From: Sodalis endosymbiont of Henestaris halophilus
GTDB taxonomy: Bacteria; Pseudomonadota; Gammaproteobacteria; Enterobacterales; Enterobacteriaceae
DNA: 64,000 nt
Direction: 5' to 3'
Assembly (NCBI RefSeq): GCF_900161835.1
Contig: NZ_LT897836.1
Coordinates: forward strand, 1,488,001 to 1,552,000
In this document: positions 2,358 through 61,900 of the stretch, in pieces
Numbering within the stretch: position 1 is the first letter of the stretch
How the letters are laid out: the number at the start of each line of letters is the position of its first letter
Made by a program: the position numbers and the translations under genes
The notes under the pieces: generated by a model
Database searches by the model: none
Told to the model about the DNA's origin: nothing
The model's input: only the letters and a program-made list of their open reading frames with translations

Positions 2358-5021
2358 AAATGAAACCTAAATATTAATTTTATAAATCCATACCCGATAG
2401 TAGCGCAATAATCGTCGAAAAAGCTGATGTTAAGCTAGATCAGGTAGTTAATAAATTCACCTTATAAGTATAAGAGACCAGAAAATAACAGATCGATGCT
2501 CATAATCTCACTAAATTGTACAATGCGATGGAAAATACATTGACGGCACGATTAGACAAAATTGAGGAAAACTGATCATTGCATCCGGCAAGCAAAATAT
2601 TTAAAGTATGAGGCTGGTGAACGCAAATAAAGAATTATCGATTATACATAACAGGGACTAGCCGACATCGTAAATGATAATTTCTTAATCATAGTAGAAA
2701 CTAAACTACTAAACAAAAATATAAACACAATAAATGATCGGTCATTAACGCTTGATAGTAGTTGAGCAAATGCACCTCCAATTTTTCATTGGTTCTCATT
2801 TATGCTCATTAAAGAACCGAAGATCTACCGAAAAGATATGGTTTTCTGAGAATGGCAGTATAGTACTCGGTAAATAGTATTGATTAGTTGTCAGTAATAT
2901 CATTGTGTTCATCAGGGATAACAGCTCTCCTGATAAACACTGCAAACTAAGATGGGAAAGCAATATGCTTCTCTAACTCTCACTATTTTTAACTAACTGC
3001 TAAGTTGATTAATACGATCCTGTTTGAATAGTTCGCTAGCGCTATGCTGTTTCAAACCCGAATTGATATAATCGAAGTTTAGCTAAAAGTATTTACTACA
3101 ACCCGGCTTTTAGTTTTACTTACTTAGCCTATTTATTATCTTTGATGTATATACTATATATATCATTATATATAGCATGGTGTAACATGTTTGCATATCT
3201 TTCATAATTTTTAGCAAGATAGCCGACCAGAAAATATACAGCACAAACGATACAAATCGATAAACTCCTAAACAATATAAATTTTAATATCGTTGAAGAT
3301 TATTTTCTGGGAAGTAATCATTAAAGATATTTTTGCATACAGAGATCTCGCGGCTTGCGTTAGCTCGCTCTATTATCAATGAGTAGTGAGTAAATAAAAT
3401 GATAATGCAAGAGGTTTATGGCAAAAAATAGATCTTATGAACCAGAAAAATCTGCCCTCTTTCAAAAATAGTCGATAAAGTGCATTTATTCTGCTATGCC
3501 GCCATATACACCTAATCTTCACAAGCACAATCAGCAACAGCTGATTGTTAAAATTATTAACGCAAAATTTTTGGCAAAGATGAATGGTCTATAATTTATG
3601 GACGTCATTTTTAATAAACAATTATAGAATAACATTCTCACCCAAAATTTACTTAACGACTAAATTTCTTACGCTTAAAAATGTTAGCTGCACGGTTAAA
3701 TTAATAGATTTTTAAAAATACGAAAGAGCTGTTGCTCTGCAACCTTCCACTCCCAAAGCTAGTTGTTAAATAAATGCTAACCGAAAGGTGGTACCGCTTA
3801 CTTAATGAAGAAACTACTTGAACATAATCGCGCGTCAGTATTAACATGTACGGTATCAAGAATCATTCTTATTGCAAGAATATTGCGTAATATTTAGCAA
3901 TAACTCTTAATTTAATTTAGGGATTGAGTGTAAATAGCAGCCTACCGACGATATCACAGGACTGATCCAGATGGGTACATATGCGCGGTCCAGCCCCAGT
4001 TTGTAAAGTTACGGAACTGGTCGAATAACTGCGTTTACTATGAGTTAGACGACATTTATTTGTTACCAGACAGATATACACAGTAGCTAGAATCAGCATT
4101 ATTCAAAACTGACATCGAAGAGGTTTATGTCTAGCTCCTTTTAGTTTTAACCTGCTTTTTGAGCTTCAAGTTTAGTTTTGACTAGAGCTTATTCATAGAA
4201 CCACGATCACTTGCGTACCAGTGCAGAAGAGCGGAGGTAAAGCAACAGTTCTTTAAAGCAAAGTATTAGCACAAAAAATGAAAATCTTGTAAATTATTAC
4301 TTCACTAAAACATATTGCAAACCTAAATTTATTTAGGCCAATGAGTTGGTGGCGAAGTTTAGCTCGACTAAATAGCTAAACAATTAGGGCGCTGCTATAA
4401 GATCATTCATGATTATAACTTATTAGGAGCTAGTGTGCTCTAAATAATCTACAGTCTAATATATTTCACCTTCAGTGGAATCACTGTTTAGAAATAGACA
4501 TTTTCGTTAGATTTTTAGGATACCTAAATACATGACCTCTTAGTATTAGTTTATTACTATTAAACGCGTTCTGTTAATTCTGCAAAATAAGAGAATGTTG
4601 TATTATTTAGCATTATTAGGCAAGTTTGATATCTATTTTGATAACCATGTTAAAATAATCTTATGTGACTTTTTTATGATAAGTACATAGATGCAAGTGT
4701 TGATGTATGCGACTACATAGCTAGTTCTGCGATCAAATCTTATTTGATTGATTATCCTAGTATTATAATTCTTGGTAGTAATGTCCGGCAAAGTATGTGC
4801 TTTCATGGTTTTCATTTGGGGCTGTTTTAACGGCATTGGCGCGCTAACAGATGTCCGACTTAATAGACTGAACATGCCGAACGTTAACGCGCTGTGGTGG
4901 GAATATAGAAATCATACTTTAACTAAAGTAGTCATATGATCACAGTTAGGCATCTCCTATTTGAGATAAATAACATGCATCACTATTACTGCCTGGTAGG
5001 CTTTGATAGTTTAGGTAAAAT

Positions 5022-5053
5022 AAAACTGCTCGATGAGTCTAGCGAGCAGTTTT
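5022..5053 (-). terminator. Terminator-like hairpin downstream of uvrB remnant
   Basis: An 11-bp perfect stem (AAAACTGCTCG / CGAGCAGTTTT) with a 10-base loop. On the minus strand it is followed by TTTTATTTT, and on the plus strand it ends in TTTT, so it could act in both directions. It lies about 100 bases past the last recognisable uvrB codon, although roughly 290 C-terminal uvrB codons are missing. It may therefore be the old uvrB terminator brought close by an internal deletion (inference). Confidence 0.5.
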
Positions 5054-5144
5054 ACCATGTAACTAATAAATTCATCATGATTACCCTGCTCAATTATTTA
5101 TTGCGCAACTGCTTTTATTTAGCTGCATAAATTCTATTATATGA

Positions 5145-6122
5145 GCGGATTTCAGAAAGAGTCGGCGGCGTCTCGTCCGGCCTACGGACTGACAGGTAAC
5201 TAGAATAGTTTTCGATAACCGACAATATCCTAGCTTGTTTATCATTTCTAGATCAAAGGCTGTACGTTGATATAGTCGTTCTCTAGAAGCTTGCCATTGG
5301 CTAGCAACATCTAGCGTCTTTCAGATAGCTTGCTTTTAATTTCTTCCATTGCTTGCAACAAACTCGCCCATGAAACTAAATAATGTATTTTCGGGTAGAT
5401 AGTATAATTAAATGTTGTCTGAACAATCCATCCTGTTAGTAAATCGAACAACAATAGATGCTCTAATTCATCGTTAAGCAGTTCAATACGCAACGCAATT
5501 CCGTCGGTCTCAGCAGAGAAAATATTGATGACTTCACCTCGTACCAGGAAACGACCGCGCTGACAAACTTGATCGTTGCGGGTATAATGCAGTTTCAAGA
5601 GCTGATTCATTATACTACTATGAGGGATTATTATACCGCGCATTAGATGAAGAATGGTTTTCAAACAATTACTTGGAACTTATAAGCCACAAATATAGAA
5701 AACTAACGCTACTACGATGACATCACGCCTCCCTAGCAGACTTTCGTAGCGGATAATCTCATTTGCTCAATATACTCTCGTTAACTAACACGTTTTTCTC
5801 GATAAAAGTATCAGAGTTAGGCAAATAAGCTTCCAGATGATAATAGCTGTAATAGGAAACGAAATATTCTACCGCTTTTTCGGGGGCAAAGCATTTATTT
5901 TGTTATACAACTGTGCCGCCAGCGTTTTATTTGGTGCCAATACAATGGTAGCCGATTGATAATCAGCTATAACTTTTGCTATGGCAAAAGTTATAGCTGA
6001 GTCGGTCACGCCTAATGGGCGCTGACGAGCTAAATTATTTTTAACTATTTTCTAAACGACGAATAGCATTCGATTGATCTTCGGACGGTTTAAACAATGA
6101 AACCAGTTTAAATTTTACTCGT
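5145..6122 (-). pseudogene. uvrB pseudogene (excinuclease ABC subunit B)
   Basis: UvrB is the DNA-loading helicase-like subunit of nucleotide excision repair. Minus-strand translation in three frames gives clear UvrB segments in order: the N-terminus ending FKPSEDQSNAIRRLE, the block [24 protein letters not shown], a 117-codon open stretch (5311-5664) containing YTRNDQ, RGEVINIF and AMEEIK, then QRTAFDLEMINKLGYC. The start codon has become ACG (6122-6120), stops and frameshifts separate the blocks, and the Walker A motif GVTGSGKT reads GVTDSAIT. The C-terminal helicase half is absent. Position and orientation match uvrB in E. coli relative to pgl. The gene is certainly dead, so nucleotide excision repair is lost unless another copy exists. 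Confidence 0.93.
5963..6000. repeat. 17-bp perfect inverted repeat over uvrB Walker A
   Basis: TCAGCTATAACTTTTGC and its exact reverse complement are separated by TATG. The element lies exactly over the codons for the UvrB Walker A region; the right arm still reads as the conserved AKVIAD codons, and the left arm encodes the altered SAITFA. This looks like one arm rewritten to match the other (quasipalindrome correction); see findings. Confidence 0.85.
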
Positions 6123-9100
6123 TAGTTACGATTACCACTGTTAGGAACAGTGGGCATAGAATAATCTATGAGCATAAAATAAAATATTATTTTTTAATGA
6201 ATAACACCTAGATACAACACCAGTAATTATCTACAATCTATATTGTATATTTTATTTTCAATAAAGGGAAAGTATTAACTTTCCGAGTAAATGCTTAAAC
6301 AAAATTATAAATACATCCCTTAGAGAGAAGTGCAACTACTGTTCATCATGCTGCACTTGTTATAAATACATAAACAAAAAAAGCAAAAAAAAGTAACGCA
6401 TAACTAGCTATCGCATCTACACGTTTTCCTAAAATTAATTAATTTAAAGGTTATCGATGGGAATAACAAATAACGTGTACTATTTAAATTATATCTTTTA
6501 TATAAAACGACATAACTTAAAAAATGAACGAGGTTAACTATTATCAGTTTTGATATAATCAAATATTATATTGACAAAGTCAATATAAGTGGCAAAATGT
6601 CTCCGCTATAGTTAAGTAAACAACGCTGGCGCACATTACAAATACTTTAAAGCACATTTAAATCACAAAATATGCGCTCAAAAAAGACAAAACAAATTAC
6701 TTTTCTATATTAGAAAAACCGTTCTTATAAAGAATTTATATGTTTTAGACGTCCTATAACCTATTCGGCACAACTATCAATCACGCTAGCGGTTGGATCT
6801 GATTGCTTAATAGTTGCTAAAACCTATAGTCGGCATAACCGCGAAGTTGCTTGCAGCGATATACAGATATCTTAAGATGGCTTTTTACAAAGTAAGTTAT
6901 CCATTATAACATGATACCACTACCATGAACACGGTAAATTAACTCCACAGCCGATCAAGAAAATTCTATGTAATAGATTCATTTAAAGTTGTCGTACGGT
7001 AAATATAGTTAACTTTTAAGGCGACACGGAATTATCACAATTACCTTAATCAATTGCCTACCAGGACGTATGTGGGTAGACAACGTCATTTGGCAACCAG
7101 AATAGGGGACAAAACTTGTTTATGTATCACGCCGCAATGCGTGCATTGCTCAGCATCGGTTATGTTACAATCTCAATGGTGACACATTGTCCTTAATTAA
7201 GTATAAAATAATAATATATAAGGCGTCATTGCTAGACGGCTATAATGAATCTACCAAGAATAAATTGTAAGAAATGATCTGAACGCTATGTTCACTACAT
7301 TACATTGCTACATAATAGCACCCATGATGAAAATTAAAGCTGTTAATTCTCGACTATAACAATAGCGACTTATTATTGATAATATATCAAGAACTATACT
7401 ATATTCTTTGAATCATGCAGCACGAAATTTAGTTTTGATTTTATCATTGCTTTGTCTGATTTATGGCGAACGCAATATAAACCCATGGCGGCTCACTGGA
7501 CAAAAAGGATAGAACGTTGTTTTAACACTCTATCTAGAATTTTTGACCTTAATACACAATTAGATCCTTATCTGATGTTGAATCTATCTACTGTAACAAA
7601 ATGTCTTATTAGAGATAACATGCTGATGACAAAGACATAAATGGCATCGCCATACTTTTGCGTCAGAAAATCTAGTTTAAACAGTAAGGAGACAAAACCA
7701 GACTAAAATACTCTGTCGACAACACATGTTCTACGGTGTTAAATCCAATAATTTAATTTATTATTTCTCACAAAAGTAAGTCGACAGCCTTTTTGCAGCA
7801 TCATGAAAAGGGATTAGGTTTATGTTCTTCATACTAAGCCCCGCATGAGGCATTACAAGCGCTATGAGAAATGAATGATTAAGATAAATTCACATGCATA
7901 ATACTCAGTATCAGAATTGCCGATATTCCATTGGATACAAACAACAGGCATTAACTAGCATTGTTTTTCCCTAGAGGAAAAACCAGCTTTAGTTTGTTCT
8001 TATATTACTAGTTAATCTACGGCGATTTACCATGCTGATGCGTGTAACTAGTCACATGATCGTTAAACATAAATTCAAGGAACCAGTAATTCGCGTAATT
8101 CATTAAACGTCATTATTTCTCTCGTCTTAATCGAGAGATAAAAAATTGCTATGATCTTGAGAATTAATAATTTTGGGGAATATTATTAGCTATATAGCTA
8201 ACAACTACTAGTCTAAAGGAGTGAAAGCTGGACGCGCAGATAACCTGGCACAAAACTTTTACTCACCTAATGCTCCTAGTAATAGGGGCGTTAGCAGACC
8301 CATCAAGATAAATACGCGGCGGGTAAAAAGTTTTAATGCGTTATTTTATTCTCTCGTGGCCATTGCTACTGGCGGTACGTAGCGAATAAATCCCATCATT
8401 TTATTACGTTTACTATAAGCAAACGTTAGATGATGTCAAACCGATTGTAACCGTCTGCTATATGCATAGCATGCATATTGGAGCCATGAAAAAACTAACG
8501 TGGCACACTGCTAGCAGCCAAAGTAAGCGTGTAAACAGTTTTACCAATAACGAATAACAAGGGGTTGAATTGACCAAGATAATGTCGTTTTTAAGTATAT
8601 AATAAATTCTACTGCAAAAGGGAGGATAACCTGAACATACCAAAAGTTGGTAGCCATACTAAGCTATAAATAGTAATATAAATTCACTAGTAAAAACTTC
8701 ACATTAACGATAATATCACACATAATTTATTAAAAATTTAATCAATAAGATCTAATGAGTAAGTAATCAAATACTTACCTTATATGAGTAAAGTAAACTG
8801 CATTCTAAACCGACGTTACCAACGTATCACATCTTTAATGATATAAAATAAGTATCATAATCATATATATTATATACAGAAGTAATAATATTTTTAAGCA
8901 TCTAGCTTGAGATAATATATTTATGAGTATCGTAAAAGTTTTACGAAGACCACTTTTGATTATGGTACATGGCATGGCCAGCTCTAACGGCTAATCAATA
9001 TTCTAGCGGTATACACACGGCATGCTACTCCCAAGATGCGGGCTTCAATTAGAGGCCATTGGCTAATAAATACAGGTCAGGCTAAAAATATCATGAATAT

Positions 9101-9384: not shown

Positions 9385-10380
9385 TTACATCACCAAGATA
9401 GACACCCACATTGGTCCTCGCCCCACCGCATAACGTTCTATTAATGATAGAACGCCCGATTGCGCATCGATGGCGTATACAGCAATATGATCTGATTTCT
9501 GCCCCGCCGCTACCAAGAACCGTCCCTGAGGATCGATATTAAAACCACGAATCTGGGTTTCTGTTGCCTGATAACCCAACAAACTCAATACAGAGCCATC
9601 TTCCGACACCGAAAACCGACTAATGATACTGGCTTTACGATCACAGCAGTAAAGCCAGCGGTCATCGATGGTAATGTGAATATCCGCCGCCCAGCGAATA
9701 TTGCTGAAAGTAGCTGGCATGATGTCTAATGTTTGTATAATACGCGGACCAAAACCCGCAGAGTGAATATCAATTACATCGACTGTACCGCTAAGTTCAT
9801 TAATAACATAAGCATAATTTCCACCGTGATGGAAAGCCATATGGCGAGGCCCTGAGCCTGCCACACATTCTAGTGCCGCGGGACTGAAGGGCATTAAACA
9901 TCCGGATTGGCCAATCTTATAAAGTCGAATGCGATCTTCTTGCAAGCAAGGCACCCAAAGCACCTGATTAGTCGTATCGACGTTAGCAGAATGGCAATTG
10001 GTCAAACCTTTAAGGGTTTGCTGCGGTGCTCCGACAACACCTCGCTCATCTATGGGGCTAACGCTCAGGTAGCTGCTACTATAAGAAACACTGTATAGGG
10101 TTGTACCCTGCAAATCGGTGGTAATTTGAGTCGGACTACCCAACAACGGAGCTATGCTGTCTTCCGTCAGCAACCCTTCTTCATCAATGCAGTAACTAAT
10201 CACGCTAAAAACCGGTCGGATACCGATATAAAGGTGTGTTTTCTTTGGATGGATTGCCATCGGTTGCCCTTTCCCTAACGTATTGACTACTTGCAATAAT
10301 GTTAGCATTCCCTGACCATCCATTTGCCAAACGTGTATTTGCTGACTGTCCGGACTGGCTACGTAGACAATTTGTTTCAC
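9385..10380 (-). CDS. pgl: 6-phosphogluconolactonase
   Basis: Hydrolyses 6-phosphogluconolactone to 6-phosphogluconate in the oxidative pentose phosphate pathway, in the cytosol. The protein is 331 aa, the same length as E. coli Pgl (YbhE type), a seven-bladed beta-propeller. Alignment with E. coli is ungapped over most of its length, with conserved blocks GPRHMAFH, WAADIHIT, SVSEDGSVLS and the C-terminal VGRGPMWV. Translation starts at GTG, preceded by AGGA six bases upstream. It stands alone, about 3 kb from any recognised neighbour on the left and 6 kb from the next intact gene on the right, and must have its own promoter, which I could not locate with confidence. Intact and certainly under selection, since everything around it has decayed. 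Confidence 0.97.
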   Translation of the reverse strand: MKQIVYVASPDSQQIHVWQMDGQGMLTLLQVVNTLGKGQPMAIHPKKTHLYIGIRPVFSVISYCIDEEGLLTEDSIAPLLGSPTQITTDLQGTTLYSVSYSSSYLSVSPIDERGVVGAPQQTLKGLTNCHSANVDTTNQVLWVPCLQEDRIRLYKIGQSGCLMPFSPAALECVAGSGPRHMAFHHGGNYAYVINELSGTVDVIDIHSAGFGPRIIQTLDIMPATFSNIRWAADIHITIDDRWLYCCDRKASIISRFSVSEDGSVLSLLGYQATETQIRGFNIDPQGRFLVAAGQKSDHIAVYAIDAQSGVLSLIERYAVGRGPMWVSILVM

Positions 10381-26448: not shown

Positions 26449-26895
26449 CTAACTGTTAATGGGCCGGGTCATCAGACTAACCGACTTCACGCCAGCCCGA
26501 TGCAGTAAATTTAGCACTTTGATGATCTCATCATAAGGCACGTTTTTTGTGCCGCCTATCAAAAATACCGTCTTAGGATTAACTGTAATACAGGCATTTG
26601 CTTCTGAAACAACCCGTTCTGGTGGCAACTGCTCTTGACGCAAATGATCAATCATCATACTATATTGGCCAATTCCTGACACTTCTACGATAACAAGAGA
26701 ATTACTATTGTTGCCAACGATTTTGAAGTCGATCGAATCAGGTAAATCTACCTCCACACTTTGAGTAACCATCGGCGCAGTAGCTATCAAGATTAAAACC
26801 AGTACCAGCAATACATCGAGAAAGGGAATAATATTAATTTCAGACTTAATTTCTCTGCGCATGCTGTTTCTAAACATAATTTTACTCTCACTCAT
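26449..26895 (-). CDS. tolR: Tol-Pal motor protein TolR
   Basis: An inner-membrane component of the TolQR proton channel (ExbD family). The protein is 148 aa (142 in E. coli). One transmembrane segment lies at about 22-43 and contains Asp27 in PFLDVLLVL, the protonatable residue essential for the motor. The periplasmic domain keeps [20 protein letters not shown] and [14 protein letters not shown]. Its ATG overlaps the tolQ stop by four bases (ATGA at 26895-26892), implying translational coupling. An alternative start is Met7; the overlapped ATG is preferred because of the coupling. Confidence 0.96.
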
Positions 26896-27578
26896 TTAAG
26901 AGTACTATTGGCGAAAGCCTCACGGTGCAAAATAGCGATAAACTCTTCAGTAAAATTACCATAATTCTGTTCAAGCTTGTTGACATGCAGGGTTAACCAG
27001 TTAAACGCCATTACCGCAGGAATAGCAGCAAATAGACCCATGGAAGTAGCGATCAGTGCTTCAGCTATCCCCGGTGCGACCATCTGGAGAGTCGCTTGTT
27101 GTACCGCTCCCAACCCTATAAAAGCATGCATAATACCCCATACAGTGCCGAACAAACCTACATATGGACTAATAGAACCGATAGTGCAAAGAAACGAGAT
27201 ATAAGTTTCCAAATTTTCTAACTCGCGATTCATCGCAATACGCATAGCACGTGAGACACCATCCACCACCGCATCAGGAGCGTAGCTATTGACACGATGC
27301 AAGCGTGTAAACTCTTTAAAGCCAGCGTAGAAAATCTGCTCGGGACCGCTTAGACTGTCGCGTCGCGACGTGCTTTCCTGATATATTCTAGATAATTCGA
27401 TACCAGACCAAAATTTATCCTCAAAAGCCTCCGCTGCGCGCGCAGCGGAGGCTAAAATACGGGATCGTTGAATTATGATTGCCCAGGAGGCAATAGAAAA
27501 ACATATCAAAATTAACATGATCATTTTTATCATAAAGCCTGCTTTCAGGAATAAATCACAGATGTTCATGTTAGTCAC
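26892..27578 (-). CDS. tolQ: Tol-Pal motor protein TolQ
   Basis: An inner-membrane subunit (ExbB/MotA family) that forms the proton channel with TolR and energises TolA. From the GTG at 27578 the protein is 228 aa (230 in E. coli) and begins [11 protein letters not shown], aligning with MTDMNILDLFL. GGAG lies eight bases upstream of the GTG. The frame runs on to an ATG at 27656, but those extra codons overlap the ybgC remnant. Three transmembrane segments are expected, at about 15-37, 135-160 and 170-195, with [21 protein letters not shown] and the [11 protein letters not shown] helix conserved. The codons for AARAAEA contain a 28-bp perfect palindrome. Confidence 0.96.
27426..27453. repeat. 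28-bp perfect palindrome inside tolQ
   Basis: Fourteen bases (AGCCTCCGCTGCGC) are followed directly by their exact reverse complement, within the tolQ codons for an Ala-rich segment aligned with AAREAEAFED of E. coli. It is strikingly GC-rich for this sequence. It would form a strong hairpin in tolQ mRNA or cruciform DNA. Confidence 0.95.
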
Positions 27579-27715
27579 TGCTTTAACTCCACGAAAAACG
27601 TAGGAAGCACAATCAGCTTCAATTGCATGTAGATTAAATACATGCGATAAATGCATCTGACCTAGCTGATTAAATTCTGAATTAGCATTCAGAATGCGTT
27701 AAAAATAGTCAGAAA
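27575..27715 (-). pseudogene. ybgC remnant (acyl-CoA thioesterase), 3' end
   Basis: YbgC is a thioesterase encoded directly upstream of tolQ in E. coli, its TGA stop overlapping the tolQ GTG. Here the same overlap survives: the minus strand reads [10 protein letters not shown] then TGA (E. coli LPKSIVAEFKQ), with GTGA shared with tolQ. Further upstream, in another frame, [11 protein letters not shown] matches QRIVNAENTLLN, the Gln codon having become TAA. Beyond about 27715 nothing is recognisable. The surviving tail supplies the GGAG ribosome-binding site of tolQ, which probably explains its preservation. Confidence 0.8.
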
Positions 27716-28302: not shown

Positions 28303-29442
28303 TCAATACAAAGAATGTATGTTTTGCTCAACATATTCTTTAGTAATCTTACCAAACATTTTATAATAACACCAAATCGTGTAGAGTAAAACGAGCGGCA
28401 CAAAAATAATGGCAACTACCGTCATGACTTTCAATGTCCCAAAACTAGAAGTAGCATCCCATAAAGTTAAACTGGCATTGGGCATCGTGCTTGATGGCAT
28501 GATAAACGGAAAAAGCGTGATCCCCACAGTCAAGATTATGCAAACTACGGTTAATGAAGAGAAAATAAAAGCACAGGCGCTGCGACCTACGCGGCTAAAT
28601 ACTATAGTCAGTAGCGGAAATAGCATACTAAGCACTGGAGCTATCCATAATCCCGGATAGACGTGGTAATTGACCATCCACGCGCCTGCCTGATGCACTA
28701 CTTTTTTATGCAGCGGGTTAGACTGCGCAGCTCGATCGATCACTGACGTTACTATAAAACCATCGATGCTGTTAACGATCCAAATCCCGGCCAGCAGAAA
28801 GGCCAGTAAAGTAATAAGTGCGGCAAACTGTGTTATGCCACGCATCCTGATCTGCAAATCAGCAGCGGTACGCATTTGCAGATAGGTTCCACCTTGAGTC
28901 AAAAACATCGCCAGGCTCAGAATACCCGCTAACAAGCCGAACGGATTAAGTAACTGAAAAAAAGTGCCCGTGTAATACACGCGCAGATAATCGTCTAAGT
29001 AAAACGGTACACCTTGCAGCAAGTTGCCGAATGTTACTCCTATCACGAACGGTGTAATAACGCTACCTACGAAAATTCCCCAATCCCACAAATTTCGCCA
29101 ACTTGCGTCATCGATTTTTGATCGGTAATCAAAACCTACAGGGCGGAAGAGTAGCGAAGCTAGCACTAAAATTATAGCGATATAAAAACCGGAAAACGCA
29201 GCAGCATACACAATTGGCCAGGCGGCGAACAGGGCGCCACCAGCGGTGATGAGCCATACCTGGTTACCATCCCAGTGTGGCGCAATAGTATTAATCATAA
29301 CCCGACGCTCAATGTCGTTTCGACCAAACAAGCGCATTAAAATACCGACGCCCATATCAAACCCATTAGTGACAGCAAAACCGATGAACAATACACCAAT
29401 CAGCACCCACCAAATAATACGCAATACTTCATAATCAAACAT
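28303..29442 (-). CDS. cydB: Cytochrome bd-I ubiquinol oxidase subunit II
   Basis: The second large subunit of the high-affinity quinol oxidase in the inner membrane. From the ATG at 29442 the protein is 379 aa, identical in length to E. coli CydB, and begins MFDYEVLRIIWW (E. coli MIDYEVLRFIWW). A GGAG sits nine bases upstream. The nearby in-frame ATG at 29448 is only three bases from that GGAG, and the farther ATG at 29481 would add 13 residues unlike the family. About eight to nine transmembrane helices; HWDGNQVWLITAGGALFAAWP, RPVGFDYRSK and MPSSTMPNASLTLWDATSS are conserved. It lies 47 bases after cydA. Confidence 0.97.
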   Translation of the reverse strand: MFDYEVLRIIWWVLIGVLFIGFAVTNGFDMGVGILMRLFGRNDIERRVMINTIAPHWDGNQVWLITAGGALFAAWPIVYAAAFSGFYIAIILVLASLLFRPVGFDYRSKIDDASWRNLWDWGIFVGSVITPFVIGVTFGNLLQGVPFYLDDYLRVYYTGTFFQLLNPFGLLAGILSLAMFLTQGGTYLQMRTAADLQIRMRGITQFAALITLLAFLLAGIWIVNSIDGFIVTSVIDRAAQSNPLHKKVVHQAGAWMVNYHVYPGLWIAPVLSMLFPLLTIVFSRVGRSACAFIFSSLTVVCIILTVGITLFPFIMPSSTMPNASLTLWDATSSFGTLKVMTVVAIIFVPLVLLYTIWCYYKMFGKITKEYVEQNIHSLY

Positions 29443-54723: not shown

Positions 54724-57642
54724 AAATTGATGTTAATCCGCTGTTTCTTAATTGTACTTAAAACTATAACAACTTGATCTAAGAGGATATTGCTCTTATA
54801 CTTATCAAGGACGGCATCCCCAGGATGGGGACTAATAATAAGTCAATAAAATAATCTCAATTGAGTAACCAAAGCGTTATCTTTATCTTCGATATGCCAT
54901 AGCCGCCTTCAATGGTTAAAATATTGACATACTTACAATCTAATCAAATATTAAATTGTTTTGATTATTTACTTGATACAGCAAATGCGTATTTTGCTTA
55001 AATAATTATTTGCGATACGATTAATTTTAATTAACGTTGATCTGGATTTAATAAAAGACCGCCAAAGCATTTATATGCTTAACTAATAAAATTAGTTAAG
55101 CATATTACTCCAATTAAAATAATAGATTGTGCAACTGCATCACTAGTAAAACAACTCAGTGACCACTGTGATTGACTACAAATAGCTCACACATACTAAA
55201 CCAGGATCATTGGGATAATAATTATTTTGAATATTAGCCAAACAAAAGCAGGGTAAGGGTTTTCTATTCGTAACATACTAATCTATTTATTGTATGACTT
55301 GCTTTACTACAAGCAAGTTATTTAACTACAAACAATAAAATTGTAGCTTTATAAGAATAAAGAAGCAATAGATTAAATTACTTAAAGCGGTAATCAGTAA
55401 TTATATTTCTATCTGGAAACATGGTATCAATATTTGACGAGGTTTAACATAAATTAAATTACCTTACAGACTGTCCCCAGAAGTATTAATTATTTACGCT
55501 TTATAGCGTATACCTTATCATCGATCTTAATCGCAGCGCATACTATTTTAGGCCTATTACCGCAAGTATACCTTTGGTGTTCTAATTAAGAATAATAGTA
55601 GAAATGCATAAAGTGAGCCGGTTTAGCTTCGAGTGTATCTGTATGTTTAACATGGACTAATATATAGATCTATCTGCCTAACATCTCACTAATTATATTT
55701 GCCCATGATTATACAGTAAGCATCAATATTATTTACAGTACAGTTAGCATATTGAAATCATAGATTACTATGAAGAAAATAAAATGTTATAAAATAAGAT
55801 ACTTATTAATAAGTATTAGTTATGATAGACTAATCAGTTATTACACACCTGATTCTTACTTCGCGGTTCACAACCAAATCACATTCATAACCCGGAAACA
55901 TCCCTGCCAATTTCGCTTATTTAACAAAAATAAAGCAATACCCCTAATTTTCTAACAGCGGGAATCAAGATGCTGTTGATCGCAGAAGAAAGTAATGATA
56001 GTAAATCCTATGCATAATAAAGCCTAAAATGCAGTAAGCAGAGGTAATGGGTAACCTCAATTATATTGAGAATAATAAATATATTTACAGTTTGTATGTA
56101 AATCTTGTGCAGTGCAATAAAACGTCTAAGTAAGACTTACAGGTAAAAAACAGTCAAATATTTCCCGATAATTGAAACAAAATAATCTGATCAACGTTGG
56201 TTTACCTACCTGGAAATTAATATGTATTTAAATTAATTGTAACGACTATCCTAGTAACAAAAAATCAAATAAACAAAGATTAGTAATCTAGGACAATATT
56301 ATCAAATACAATTTATGAAGATGTTACATCTGTAGACGTAACGATCTAACTGTATAAATTTATAAAATATAATTGTAATGCTTTTATCTAAAGAGTTATT
56401 GCCCAGATTGATTTTTTGGCGTCTATGCAGAGACGACGCAGTAATACTGCATATCTACCATGTACGAACATTTATCATTGTTAATACACGTCCATACTGC
56501 GCCTCCACTAAACAATTTATAACGCAACTCACGCACGCATGTAATAACAATAAATAGTAACATCTATAAACATCAGTTTTATCCGCAACTATTTGATAGA
56601 TCACTACTGTTTTAAACTAGTTTAGTTATGAGGTGATGCAGAATAATTTAAAAAATTACCAGTAATTTTTTAAATAAACCGCGCAATATATTTGATTTAT
56701 TTAATACAAAACCGAAAAAAGACCATTAAGTAATTATACGCTTACATGACAATATTTTGTATATTAAGTTATGACGAACATGATAAATTATAAGTTAAAT
56801 TAATAATAAATCGATGTTTTATATTTGTCGCGCGCTACAGATATTATTAACGGAAAAGTAAATATGAAAATAAAAACAAAGTGCAATAGTATTACTAATA
56901 CAATTAATTCCATTTAGATTAAGCAAAAATTACTTCATCTATAGAGTAGAGTTTATTAATCAGTAAAATTATTTGATGTCGATCGTGTCTTATGGTGTGC
57001 TTATATCAAACGAACTTAATTTTTTGTTTAATCACACCCCTGAAAAATACTCCACCAGTAGGTGCCAAAAACTAGGTGATAATTTAGCATGATAGCTGTG
57101 TAGTAACACTACCACATTTATTTTTGTGAGCATGAATAACTAATCTCATCTGAGCACACTACCAGTAAAGGGGCAAGCATTCAGCATAGTGCATCATAAA
57201 ATGCATTTTATGATGCAAGCAAAACTAGGCATAATTCGCGATATAATTTAAATTATATATAGTAATATTACAATTTATTGTAACTCAACAATAATGCGTT
57301 TAAAGTAAAATAAAATTAAAGCTACAGACATTCAAATAGTTACGTCTGGAGAAACGTCTAAAAATATTTATTTGCCTACCTCTATTTTGTTTTTATAAAG
57401 TATTTAAGATTAAAGAATCTTGTCCGGAGCTTATGCGTAATACACATATTCAATATGTATTAATTACATCCTGTACTAATAAAACTATATTCACCTGGCG
57501 TTGAGATACGCATTTTTAAATGCTATTAAGTAATTTGTAAGAATAAATATATGAATCAAATGAAGCGATAATATGTACCACAACAAAAATCTGACCACAC
57601 GCTTTGTGTCAAGTATCTTATAAATTACCAATGCAAGAGCGG
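54724..57642. other. Gene-free stretch where nagBACD and most of asnB should be
   Basis: No frame aligns with NagB, NagA, NagC or NagD. The N-terminal part of asnB should begin near 56.2 kb but is not recognisable. A 28-bp perfect palindrome lies at 57190-57217. The longest open frame (61 codons) is chance. GC content falls towards the right. Confidence 0.5.
57190..57217. repeat. 28-bp perfect palindrome
   Basis: TGCATCATAAAATG is followed without a spacer by its exact reverse complement. It lies within the region of the decayed asnB. It contains the palindrome ATGCAT at its centre. No known operator consensus was recognised. Confidence 0.9.
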
Positions 57643-58368: not shown

Positions 58369-58381
58369 ATAGAATAAAATT

Positions 58382-58458
58382 GGCTACGTAGCTCAGTTGG
58401 TCAGAGCACAGCACTCATAATGCTGGAGTCACGGGTTCGAATCCCGTCGTAGCTACCA
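58382..58458 (+). tRNA. metT: tRNA-Met (CAU), elongator
   Basis: A 77-base cloverleaf from GGCTACGTAGCTCAG to an encoded CCA, closely matching E. coli elongator tRNA-Met (anticodon loop CTCATAA). The acceptor stem ends CGTAGCT, so position 1 G faces U72, a wobble pair instead of the usual G-C. The first gene of a cluster in E. coli order (metT leuW glnU glnW metU glnV glnX). Confidence 0.96.
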
Positions 58459-58464
58459 CAGTTT

Positions 58465-58546
58465 GCGGGAGTGGCGAAATTGGTAGACGCACCAGATTTA
58501 GGTTCTGGCACCTCGAGGTATGCGAGTTCAAGTCTCGCCTCCCGCA
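58465..58546 (+). tRNA. leuW: tRNA-Leu (UAG)
   Basis: An 82-base class II tRNA with a long variable arm, closely matching E. coli leuW; the anticodon is TAG in GATTTAGGTTC. The CCA end is not encoded: CAA follows the discriminator A, so CCA must be added enzymatically. It begins six bases after tRNA-Met. Confidence 0.97.
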
Positions 58547-58570
58547 CAATCTATTTCAGTCAGCAGCAAA

Positions 58571-58645
58571 TGGGGTATAGCCAAGTGGTAAGGCAGCGGG
58601 TTTTGATCCCGCCATGCCCAGGTTCGAATCCTGGTACCCCAGCCA
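58571..58645 (+). tRNA. glnU: tRNA-Gln (UUG)
   Basis: A 75-base cloverleaf beginning TGGGGTATAGCCAAG with an encoded CCA. The anticodon is TTG in GGTTTTGATC. It keeps the weak U1-A72 pair, an identity element for GlnS. It follows tRNA-Leu by 24 bases, as in the E. coli order. Confidence 0.97.
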
Positions 58646-58716
58646 AATCGCTTAAATTTTAAAGACAAACAGCCGTGCTACTACCACTTAAAGTACATCA
58701 TATTTTAAAAGCTAAG

Positions 58717-58741
58717 AGATGGGTAGGGTTAAAACCCATCT
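58717..58741. repeat. 8-bp hairpin between tRNA genes
   Basis: AGATGGGT and ACCCATCT pair around a nine-base loop. It lies where E. coli has glnW, but I cannot align it to a glutamine tRNA. It may be a processing structure or noise. Confidence 0.4.
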
Positions 58742-58796
58742 ACGCCTACTAGTTTAAAGCCCTGTAATTTACAGCTAGTAAGATTTACAAATTTCT

Positions 58797-58879
58797 GGGG
58801 TGACGCTTAGATTATTAACGCACACCTGCACATAATGTAATGCTAGAGTCACAGACACAACTCCCTTCGTAGACCTCCA
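58797..58879 (+). pseudogene. Decayed second tRNA-Met (metU remnant)
   Basis: The 3' half reads CATAATG...GCTAGAGTCAC...CTCCCTTCGTAGAC-CTCCA, which aligns with the anticodon arm, variable loop, T arm and acceptor end of the intact tRNA-Met at 58382 (CATAATGCTGGAGTCAC...CCCGTCGTAGCTACCA). The 5' half is only vaguely alignable. The T loop GGTTCGAAT is destroyed, so it cannot fold as a tRNA. It sits exactly where E. coli has metU, between the two types of glutamine tRNA. Confidence 0.8.
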
Positions 58880-58885
58880 AGGTAT

Positions 58886-58957
58886 TGGGGCATAGCCAAG
58901 CGGTTAAGGCACCGGATTCTGACTCCGGTATCCCAGGTTCGAATCCTGGTGCCCCAG
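58886..58957 (+). tRNA. glnV: tRNA-Gln (CUG)
   Basis: A 72-base cloverleaf beginning TGGGGCATAGCCAAG; the anticodon is CTG in GATTCTGACTC. Compared with E. coli glnV/glnX it has one extra D-loop base and one fewer in the variable region. The discriminator is G and the next bases are TCA, so CCA is not encoded. Last gene of the cluster; E. coli has two copies, here one. Confidence 0.96.
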
Positions 58958-61900
58958 TCATAGTTATAAAAGGGTTATATATGTATCTTATTGATATTCA
59001 AAATATTTATATATACGATTTGGCATAATCATTTAATAATTTCATGAATTTACAAGCTGTAATTATATTAATACTGCGCAAATTATGATAAACTTATTGT
59101 GTGCATGTCACAAATACCGTTAGCATTAATATTTAAACGCATATGCCCCTGCTTGCTAATTTTTATTTTTGCAATTACTTCTCTCTTGCTTTACTAAGAA
59201 AATTTATAATATATTATTATCTATATACACTAATATTAAAAGTAAGAATATTAAACACCCTTCACAACTTAATTAATATTTACTATATACAAAATAAATT
59301 AACTTACTATTAAACACACAATATATAGTAAATGCATGTTATTAACATACTAAAATTTTATGATACATTATTATATAGTAGTATTGTTATTGATAATAAT
59401 AGATTATATTTATAATAAAAGCCAGCTACTTCATTTAGATTTACTTGCGTGTATACTAACGCATTGTACGATATTACATGAGCAAGGCACAAAGCGATAC
59501 CACTATTTCTAATATATAATTGTGTATTATTATGATGAAGAACAGTTTTATCTGACATTAATAATAAACCATGCAAATAGTTTAAAACCAAAATTAATAT
59601 AGATTTTATCTATAGATAAAATAGTATCTATGTTAATTTAACAAATTTAAGCAGCCCTACATTAGGGGTAACTATCATGTTGCTAATTACGCAATAAACT
59701 ATTTAATATAAGAAAATACCTGAACCTGTAACAGACAGCAAGGCATTAACATGCCCGGTTAATTCCTTGCTTTTTATTCTCTCCAAAGCTAATAACGTGA
59801 ATCGTGATTGCACTTTAATTGTTATTAACAACATTATAATTTATTATATTATTTAATACAATCTACTTGTGCTTTATAAAATTGTTTAAAGATTCATTAG
59901 CGTTATTTAAAATAAAATAGTACTTTATTGCGATACTATCTATATGATATATTTGATCGCTTCATGTTATAAACAGATAATAGAACTATAGATAATATCT
60001 ATGGAATAAAATTATTTTCTAATTTATTATGTACTTGTTATTCATACTTACCACAAACAGACAAGATCTTTTAGCAGCTAAACTAAGACGGACTTAGACC
60101 CAACTAAAATAGATAGCACTAATAATTATTTAAGAAAACTATTTACTTAGAGTAAATCTCAAATAATTTATTATTGTTGCCATAAAAAATAAAAAAACAT
60201 AACGACACCCTTTGTCTTACGTACAAAGGATTTATAATTAACAATTAATTAAAATCTAACAATTGATACTGCTTTAATAAATATTTATAGTGGTGATTAG
60301 TATTCACTAAATTTAATTTAAATGTCTGCTTATATTTAAATTAATTTATATTATAAGATCCGTAAATTATTTAATTTATTAATATTATTATCATCATTTT
60401 GTATTTGTTTGTATCGTGCAAAAACTACAAACGTCTTGTAACTCCTGTTAAGGAGACTCATACTTTAGGTTTTATATCAACGATATTTATATGCCTTACA
60501 CTCCATACTAACACCGCTAGACATTATGAATACTTAAAACTCCATTAGGTAATTTTACCGTAGCATTTTTTGAGAGGAAGATTAAAAAAAACTTTAATAA
60601 ATCTAATATCTTTATTAAAGATGAAAACTACTGTATGTAAGATGACAAATTAATATAGCGTAATTACTTATTTGTAAGGGATACAACCTCAAAAAAAATC
60701 TGCGTTATAATAATTATCCTTAATACGCATCGCTATCATGCTTACAATTAAATTGTTTAAATATATTAATATTATGTATTATTTAATATCAACTATATCG
60801 TGGTGTAAAACTATTACAATCAGCAAAAGGTTATTATTACTTATTGATAAAATGATATTTATCTTGCATATAATTTACACTCTATTGATATTCTTGACTA
60901 ACAAAGAAGGCATTTGCTTTGTGGATGTTTATTTTAATTTTCAAAGAAAAGCAAAGAGCGCACGCATAAATACTCACCTTAATAAGGTGATATGTACATT
61001 ACTTTTATTAAGTTATATTACTCGTCTGAATACCCACATAAAACCTTATATGAATAAATATTTTATCAAGCACATTATATTTCATGAAGATAAAGTATCT
61101 GACTGCGAAAACACTAATTTTAGTAATGCACTTATAATTTAATAATTATTTTAATTTAAACTTTAAATAAATGATTTATATCAAAATATAATGTATTATA
61201 ATGCAAAATATTTATCGTTATAAAACTGAAATAACATTCAGTAATTAACTTTACTTTCTTAAATTATTCTTTTGTTTACAACAATGCCATATACTTATTT
61301 TAAGATTGATTAATATTTTCTTTAATAACAATTATTGTTAGATCTCAAGATAATTATCTTATGGTATAAGTGTTTGTAACAATATTATTATATAATATCA
61401 TATATTATATAATACCATATTAATAAACGTGGTTATCGAGTAACAAATAAATACATTATTTAATAAATTATTAAACATTGCAAATAAAAGTATAATGATT
61501 ACTTGACTATTTATTCGAGCAAGTAGAGTTAGTAGTCATGATTAAAACACCTGAATTTATTACATTACTCTTAATCTTAATACTAATATTAGTAAACATT
61601 AATAGTGTTTCACTGAGGATTATCATTAACTTTAGTTGTTAAACTACAATGCAGATCATGAGAAAATTTTTGCTATGACTAATATATTTACATACAATAT
61701 ACTCATAAAGTAATTTTATACTTTTTAAAACTGATGTTAAATTGCAAGAGCAACTATTTTATAAATACATATATTCATAAATTAATTGTTTATTATTATT
61801 TTTGTATTTTAATACCTTGTATTTATGGTTTAATTTTAAGTTAACTATAACTAAATAAATTTTATTAATACTTTACGATTAAATATAATAATATTATTAA

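Follow-up and report, generated by a model that had tools for sequence, protein, structure and literature searches.

The locus examined here raises the question of how a perfect hairpin came to lie across the Walker A codons of a decayed uvrB gene in the Sodalis endosymbiont of Henestaris halophilus. The window, which is the whole 64,000-nucleotide stretch of contig NZ_LT897836.1 that was analysed and whose numbering is used throughout, had been read from sequence alone as containing a perfect 17-bp inverted repeat at 5963-6000. This is confirmed: segments 5963-5979 and 5984-6000 are 100% complementary (17/17 pairs) with a spacer of 4 nt, and the 38-bp repeat, of 17+4+17 form, has a single location across the genome. 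The features are as follows, with the relative G004 serving as the reference for alignment.

5158..6227, minus strand: uvrB pseudogene remnant, as far as it aligns by blastn with the syntenic locus in the relative G004
5984..6000, minus strand: 5' arm in the sense of the gene, covering the Walker A codons, 17 nt, the putative copy
5980..5983, no strand assigned: 4-nt loop between the 17-nt arms
5963..5979, minus strand: gene-sense 3' arm over AKVIAD, 17 nt, the putative template

The remnant comprises approximately the N-terminal half of the gene together with some upstream DNA, and is 69.6% identical to G004 uvrB over 1086 columns (blastn) in a collinear neighbourhood. The genome (1,622,395 bases, one contig) contains fragments only of the UvrB profile TIGR00631, reaching position 283 of 658, and no match over the cut-off; no match to the C-terminal half was found, either with the profile or by alignment to G004. 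Two new in-register stops are present, at 5680 and 5311, together with several frameshifting gaps of 1, 2 and 4 nt. A functional UvrB is full length and has the Walker A lysine, and this genome has no TIGR00631 match over cut-off and DSAIT in place of GSGKT. In general, the coding assignments of the sequence-only reading are correct: minus-strand translation across the repeat gives GVT-DSAITFA-IAKVIAD-YQ, with SAITFA in the Walker A arm and AKVIAD in the other, where 14 aligned relatives have G-S-G-K-T-F-T-(V/I)-A-N-V-I-(A/E)-(D/Q). The codon for the Walker A lysine now specifies isoleucine, as that reading had said of this essential residue, and GSGKT is present at 94 of 94 loci in relatives. 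The gene-sense arms are TCAGCTATAACTTTTGC (5') and GCAAAAGTTATAGCTGA (3') in the symbiont, and TCAGGGAAAACCTTTAC (5') and GCGAATGTGATAGCCGA (3') in G004.

The 38 nt, treated as single-stranded DNA, have a folding energy of -17.5 kcal/mol (z = -10.4), and the homologous G004 site, represented by a 54-nt stretch that begins one base into the 5' arm, lacks the fold (-3.2 kcal/mol, z = +0.7). The stability of the fold is what might be expected of a selected hairpin acting as a terminator, an RNA structure or a binding site, but we consider this highly improbable, as there is no T run on either side (the low-coordinate flank has A at 4 of 8 positions, which read as T on the minus strand, and the threshold for a terminator-like repeat is 5 of 8), the hairpin sits within a decayed coding frame, it is missing from all 94 relatives' loci, and the class of repeats to which it belongs lies mostly outside ORFs. 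With 6 of 17 G+C in the arm and at most 4 of 8 T beside it, the repeat does not resemble an intrinsic terminator.

The ancestral sequence had been predicted to be an imperfect palindrome, and this is borne out in the relatives. The ancestor pairs at 9 of 17 positions, whether G004 or the majority of five relatives is taken to represent it, and the 94 loci, all of them readable through an anchor downstream of Walker A, pair at 6–12 of 17 (mean 9.3; about 4 expected by chance, by arithmetic). These loci were picked by similarity to intact UvrB and are mostly working genes. Because pairing is above chance throughout, the imperfect palindrome is built into uvrB coding at the Walker A site in relatives generally. 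An intact relative with the same palindrome would have spoken against the sequence-only reading, and the palindrome is perfect in none of the 94 loci, the best having 12 of 17 pairs. A genus search for closer relatives gave the symbiont's own genome alone, a scan of the genome contigs collection gave no match to the palindrome pattern, and there are no Sodalis titles among the at least 80 UvrB loci listed from that collection; a search of the plasmid collection gave 40 records at 60–80% identity, with no Sodalis records among the 20 of the 40 that were listed. The palindrome is thus known from one genome assembly, as a sequencing or assembly artefact would be, but this explanation is scarcely credible, since both arms differ from the ancestor, the flanks are gap-free in the MAFFT alignment (with one 1-nt flank gap in blastn), and other genomes contain comparable short-spacer repeats.

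Independent point mutations could in principle have completed the palindrome by accident, given that the ancestor was already paired at 9 of 17 positions and that neither arm, with 5 and 4 changes in 17 sites, exceeds the pseudogene's 30% background. A drift model with a substitution matrix taken from the pseudogene itself (888 sites, of which 29.7% differ) gives a probability of 1.7e-9 or 5.6e-10 for a perfect 17 at this site under independent drift. The number of 17-bp repeats with a loop of at most 20 nt expected under drift is 4.2e-6 in 937 bp with G004 as ancestor and 3.2e-6 in 936 bp with the majority of five. With the odds at the site at 1.7e-9, about 4e-6 such repeats expected in the gene segment, and the excess of repeats in the sampled genome restricted to short spacers, accidental completion is very unlikely. 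There is no surplus cluster of substitutions in the arms, because their numbers match the background, which counts against a templated event, and the changes are unusual in their mutual fit only, not in how many there are. The earlier proposal of a templated (quasipalindrome) mutation stands in so far as the ancestor was imperfect and drift is rejected; its simplest form sits less well with the ancestral mismatches, which were resolved both ways.

The sequence-only reading had expected that all mismatches would be corrected toward the AKVIAD arm, and taken literally this fails. By hand count, four of the eight ancestral mismatches have gone to the state of the 3' (AKVIAD) arm, three to that of the 5' (Walker A) arm, and one to neither. 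The 5' arm has five changes from the ancestor, including the G-to-A, K-to-I and T-to-A replacements, and three of the five substitutions are of types that are rare in the pseudogene (G-to-C, 1.4%; A-to-T, 3.4%; A-to-G, 7.5% per site). In the 3' arm there are four changes, all at third codon positions and three of them synonymous, with one pseudogene-rare substitution (T-to-A, 3.8% per site); such silent-type changes are the pattern expected of a working gene. Since its changes are all at third positions and the Walker A arm bears the K-to-I change, the AKVIAD arm is supported as the better template, as judged from the substitutions. A history in which the 3' arm drifted and was then copied onto the 5' arm is favoured over the reverse by a ln Bayes factor of +4.9 with G004 as ancestor and +3.55 with the majority of five. 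If this history is true, the site stood at 12 of 17 pairs just before the event. Prior drift of the AKVIAD arm at four sites would explain all five changes in the Walker A arm, and a reading with one event holds only with that prior drift; one event, or a few, would then have been enough to perfect the repeat.

The earlier suggestion that the palindrome may have been the inactivating event is mildly disfavoured. A K-to-I change in Walker A would abolish ATPase function. The remnant also has the two stops, the frameshifts and no C-terminal half match, and an inactivating role was set aside on these grounds as well as on the dating that follows. Differences between the remnant and G004 at codon positions 1, 2 and 3 are 22, 18 and 49%, and the means for nine intact genes in the window (leaving out a tenth gene, cydB) are about 11.5, 6.8 and 43%; positions 1 and 2 exceed these means by about 11%, which is our estimate of drift since uvrB inactivation. 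Were the event as old as the inactivation, the probability that all 34 arm sites would be unmarked is about 0.02 (0.89^34, by arithmetic). The lack of later marks on these sites mildly suggests that the palindrome arose after the gene was inactivated, an argument that continued correction of the arms would weaken.

Other repeats with an inferable ancestor provide a comparison. There are 38 repeats with arms of at least 10 nt in the window and three further stretches of the symbiont's own genome (L080 as a 6-kb slice only), and six of these, the uvrB repeat among them, lie within an alignment to a relative. Two are in ORFs of the window:

9629..9658, no strand assigned: 10+10+10 repeat within the intact ORF 9385-10380
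27426..27453, no strand assigned: 14+0+14 repeat inside ORF 26892-27656, which we take to be tolQ-like

In the first of these, two neighbouring G residues of one arm have been replaced by TT and now match the partner arm. That partner is the same as in G004, from which G119 departs at 2 of its 10 sites; the change replaces threonine with lysine, by manual reading, and the repeat bears the textbook footprint of quasipalindrome correction. In the second, the ancestor was paired at 10 of 14, with mismatches resolved in both directions and one compensatory change, and the repeat at L080:4884-4908 has an ancestor paired at 6 of 12 and a mixed resolution. The repeat at L084:17651-17685, inside ORFs, has gone from 11 of 14 pairs (in G070 and G119; G004 has a 3-nt gap at the site) to 14 of 14 with three compensatory pairs. 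We note that both its arms changed together at these pairs, as if evolving in concert. The repeat at 28850-28883 amounts to one C-to-T arm change, which is uninformative, and the alignment to relatives at 5021-5054 (39–40% identity) is too poor to use.

Resolution is thus mixed in three of the six comparable repeats (uvrB, 27426 and L080:4884). These mixed and compensatory changes fit the main rival explanation, repeated two-way correction, in which several events, partial copying in either direction, or mismatch repair in an extruded hairpin would make the perfect palindrome a maintained state rather than the product of a single event. The 4:3:1 resolution at uvrB, the mixed direction at two further repeats and the three compensatory pairs at L084:17651-17685 all speak for it, but third-position drift of the 3' arm followed by one copy needs fewer templated steps, and we regard two-way correction as a possible but less probable account of the uvrB repeat.

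The uvrB repeat is one of a class and not a singleton. A sample of 464 kb, made up of the window and 20 stretches of 20 kb spaced evenly (29% of the genome), contains 42 perfect repeats whose arms have at least 12 nt and whose loops have at most 20 nt, compared with 1.0 in Markov-3 simulation (6 replicates). After removal of five with simple-sequence arms, the remaining 37 at spacers of 0–20 nt compare with 70 at spacers of 121–1000 nt (1.67 per 21 nt), a 22-fold excess; with arms of at least 14 nt there are 17 at short spacers and 6 far apart. Of the 37 short-spacer repeats, 31 are not terminator-like. ORFs of at least 100 aa make up 36% of the sample, yet 3 of the 42 repeats fall in them by majority overlap and 4 by any overlap. 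Short direct repeats, too, are over-represented at short spacers, which is what ordinary slippage would produce. Six further perfect inverted repeats of the same class as that in uvrB are found in the window at 2319-2357, 5021-5054, 55073-55105, 56646-56675, 57190-57217 and 61386-61414, with arms of 12–15 nt and loops of 0–13 nt, all outside ORFs of at least 100 aa; that at 61386-61414 is nearly simple AT sequence. Elsewhere in the window, 58373-58962 contains internally repeated, highly conserved pieces with up to 93% identity to relatives, presumably a tRNA cluster.

Outside ORFs, non-terminator-like repeats number 9.4 per 100 kb in the symbiont (28 repeats), 8.4 in G119 (7), 7.2 in G008 (7) and 10.8 in G133 (10), and 4.5 in G004, 3.3 in G042 and 3.3 in G052, each of these last three from 2 repeats. 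A raised repeat rate in the symbiont was considered and not adopted, the values for G119 and G133 (8.4 and 10.8 against 9.4) giving no clear elevation. Much of the excess may reflect the amount of unselected sequence, although G052, where ORFs cover 49% and non-coding sequence is plentiful yet repeat density is low, fits this poorly. A 20-bp perfect inverted repeat with a 5-nt loop, at L122:16618-16662 in G119, another genome of the Sodalis clade, overlaps a 144-aa ORF. A scan of G042 against G004 (94–98% identical; 18 blocks totalling 59.7 kb once those that overlapped were dropped) for recent templated events gave none among 146 clusters of at least two substitutions under a strict test (exact match, 4-nt pads); the control also gave 0, and few events are to be expected in 59.7 kb.

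ExoVII suppresses quasipalindrome-type mutations in E. coli. No match to xseA, the gene for its large subunit (TIGR00237), was found in the symbiont genome, and xseA is matched in five of five Sodalis-clade relatives; sbcB (ExoI, PF08411) is present in the symbiont as a 478-aa open frame. ExoVII loss as the cause of a raised rate was nonetheless not adopted, as the xseA-bearing G119 has a density of 8.4 against 9.4. G052 also tells against a simple rule. We find unlikely the broader proposal that decaying symbiont genomes record template-switch mutation, with homogenised hairpins accumulating and persisting in unselected pseudogenes, arms evolving in concert through repeated copying in both directions, and a rate raised in this lineage by xseA loss.

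The process itself is already known, and the uvrB repeat is an unusually legible example of it. Quasipalindrome correction was reportedly treated by van Noort et al. in 2003, and small inverted repeats are said to be the subject of Ladoukakis and Eyre-Walker in 2008. In the portions of the published texts drawn on here, quasipalindrome mutation that perfects a repeat is established in E. coli, with lacZ QP reporters and the Ripley model (PMC6357072, PMC7202029), and these portions name ExoI, in a reference title, and RecBCD only. Homogenisation of inverted-repeat arms is described there as giving multinucleotide mutations in yeast genes (PMC8604942), repeat-perfecting mutation as occurring also in RNA-gene evolution (PMC8794818), and 28 endosymbionts as being among the 200 genomes of highest repeat frequency (PMC10434271). 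PMC6060812 describes an earlier report on small inverted repeats as confined to protein-coding regions, with counts in E. coli ORFs below those of randomised controls. Among the open-licence titles and abstract openings listed, no report was found that ties template switching to symbiont pseudogenes.

The uvrB case resembles E. coli quasipalindrome correction in the passage from an imperfect to a perfect repeat, the short spacer and the probable templating by the partner arm, but differs in being a pseudogene fossil with mixed mismatch resolution. It shares with the small inverted repeats of prokaryotes, the earlier work being judged here by title, an excess of short repeats, whereas the symbiont data include an internal spacer-distance control and the repeats lie mostly outside ORFs. 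As in yeast arm homogenisation, several amino acids of one gene are changed, but the yeast parents are reconstructed and the nearest relative of this uvrB is about 30% diverged.

Taken together, we regard the uvrB hairpin as probably the product of quasipalindrome correction, with a probability of roughly 0.7. The ancestral GSGKTFT...ANVIAD coding sequence was an imperfect palindrome whose ANVIAD side would have gained mostly silent changes at a time when the gene was still being translated. Later, the nascent strand, or a fold-back of one strand, may have used the ANVIAD side as template, rewriting the Walker A side at five bases, making the arms exact reverse complements and turning the lysine codon into one for isoleucine. 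The gene was presumably dead or dying at the time, and for that reason the change was not removed; the hairpin itself would be without function. From the pattern of substitutions we infer the direction of templating, the sufficiency of one event or a few, and a date after inactivation. The locus is a natural case where templated mutation could eliminate an essential catalytic residue while making a perfect hairpin, and with such repeats in excess outside ORFs, symbionts rich in pseudogenes would seem well suited to measuring template-switch mutation without selection.
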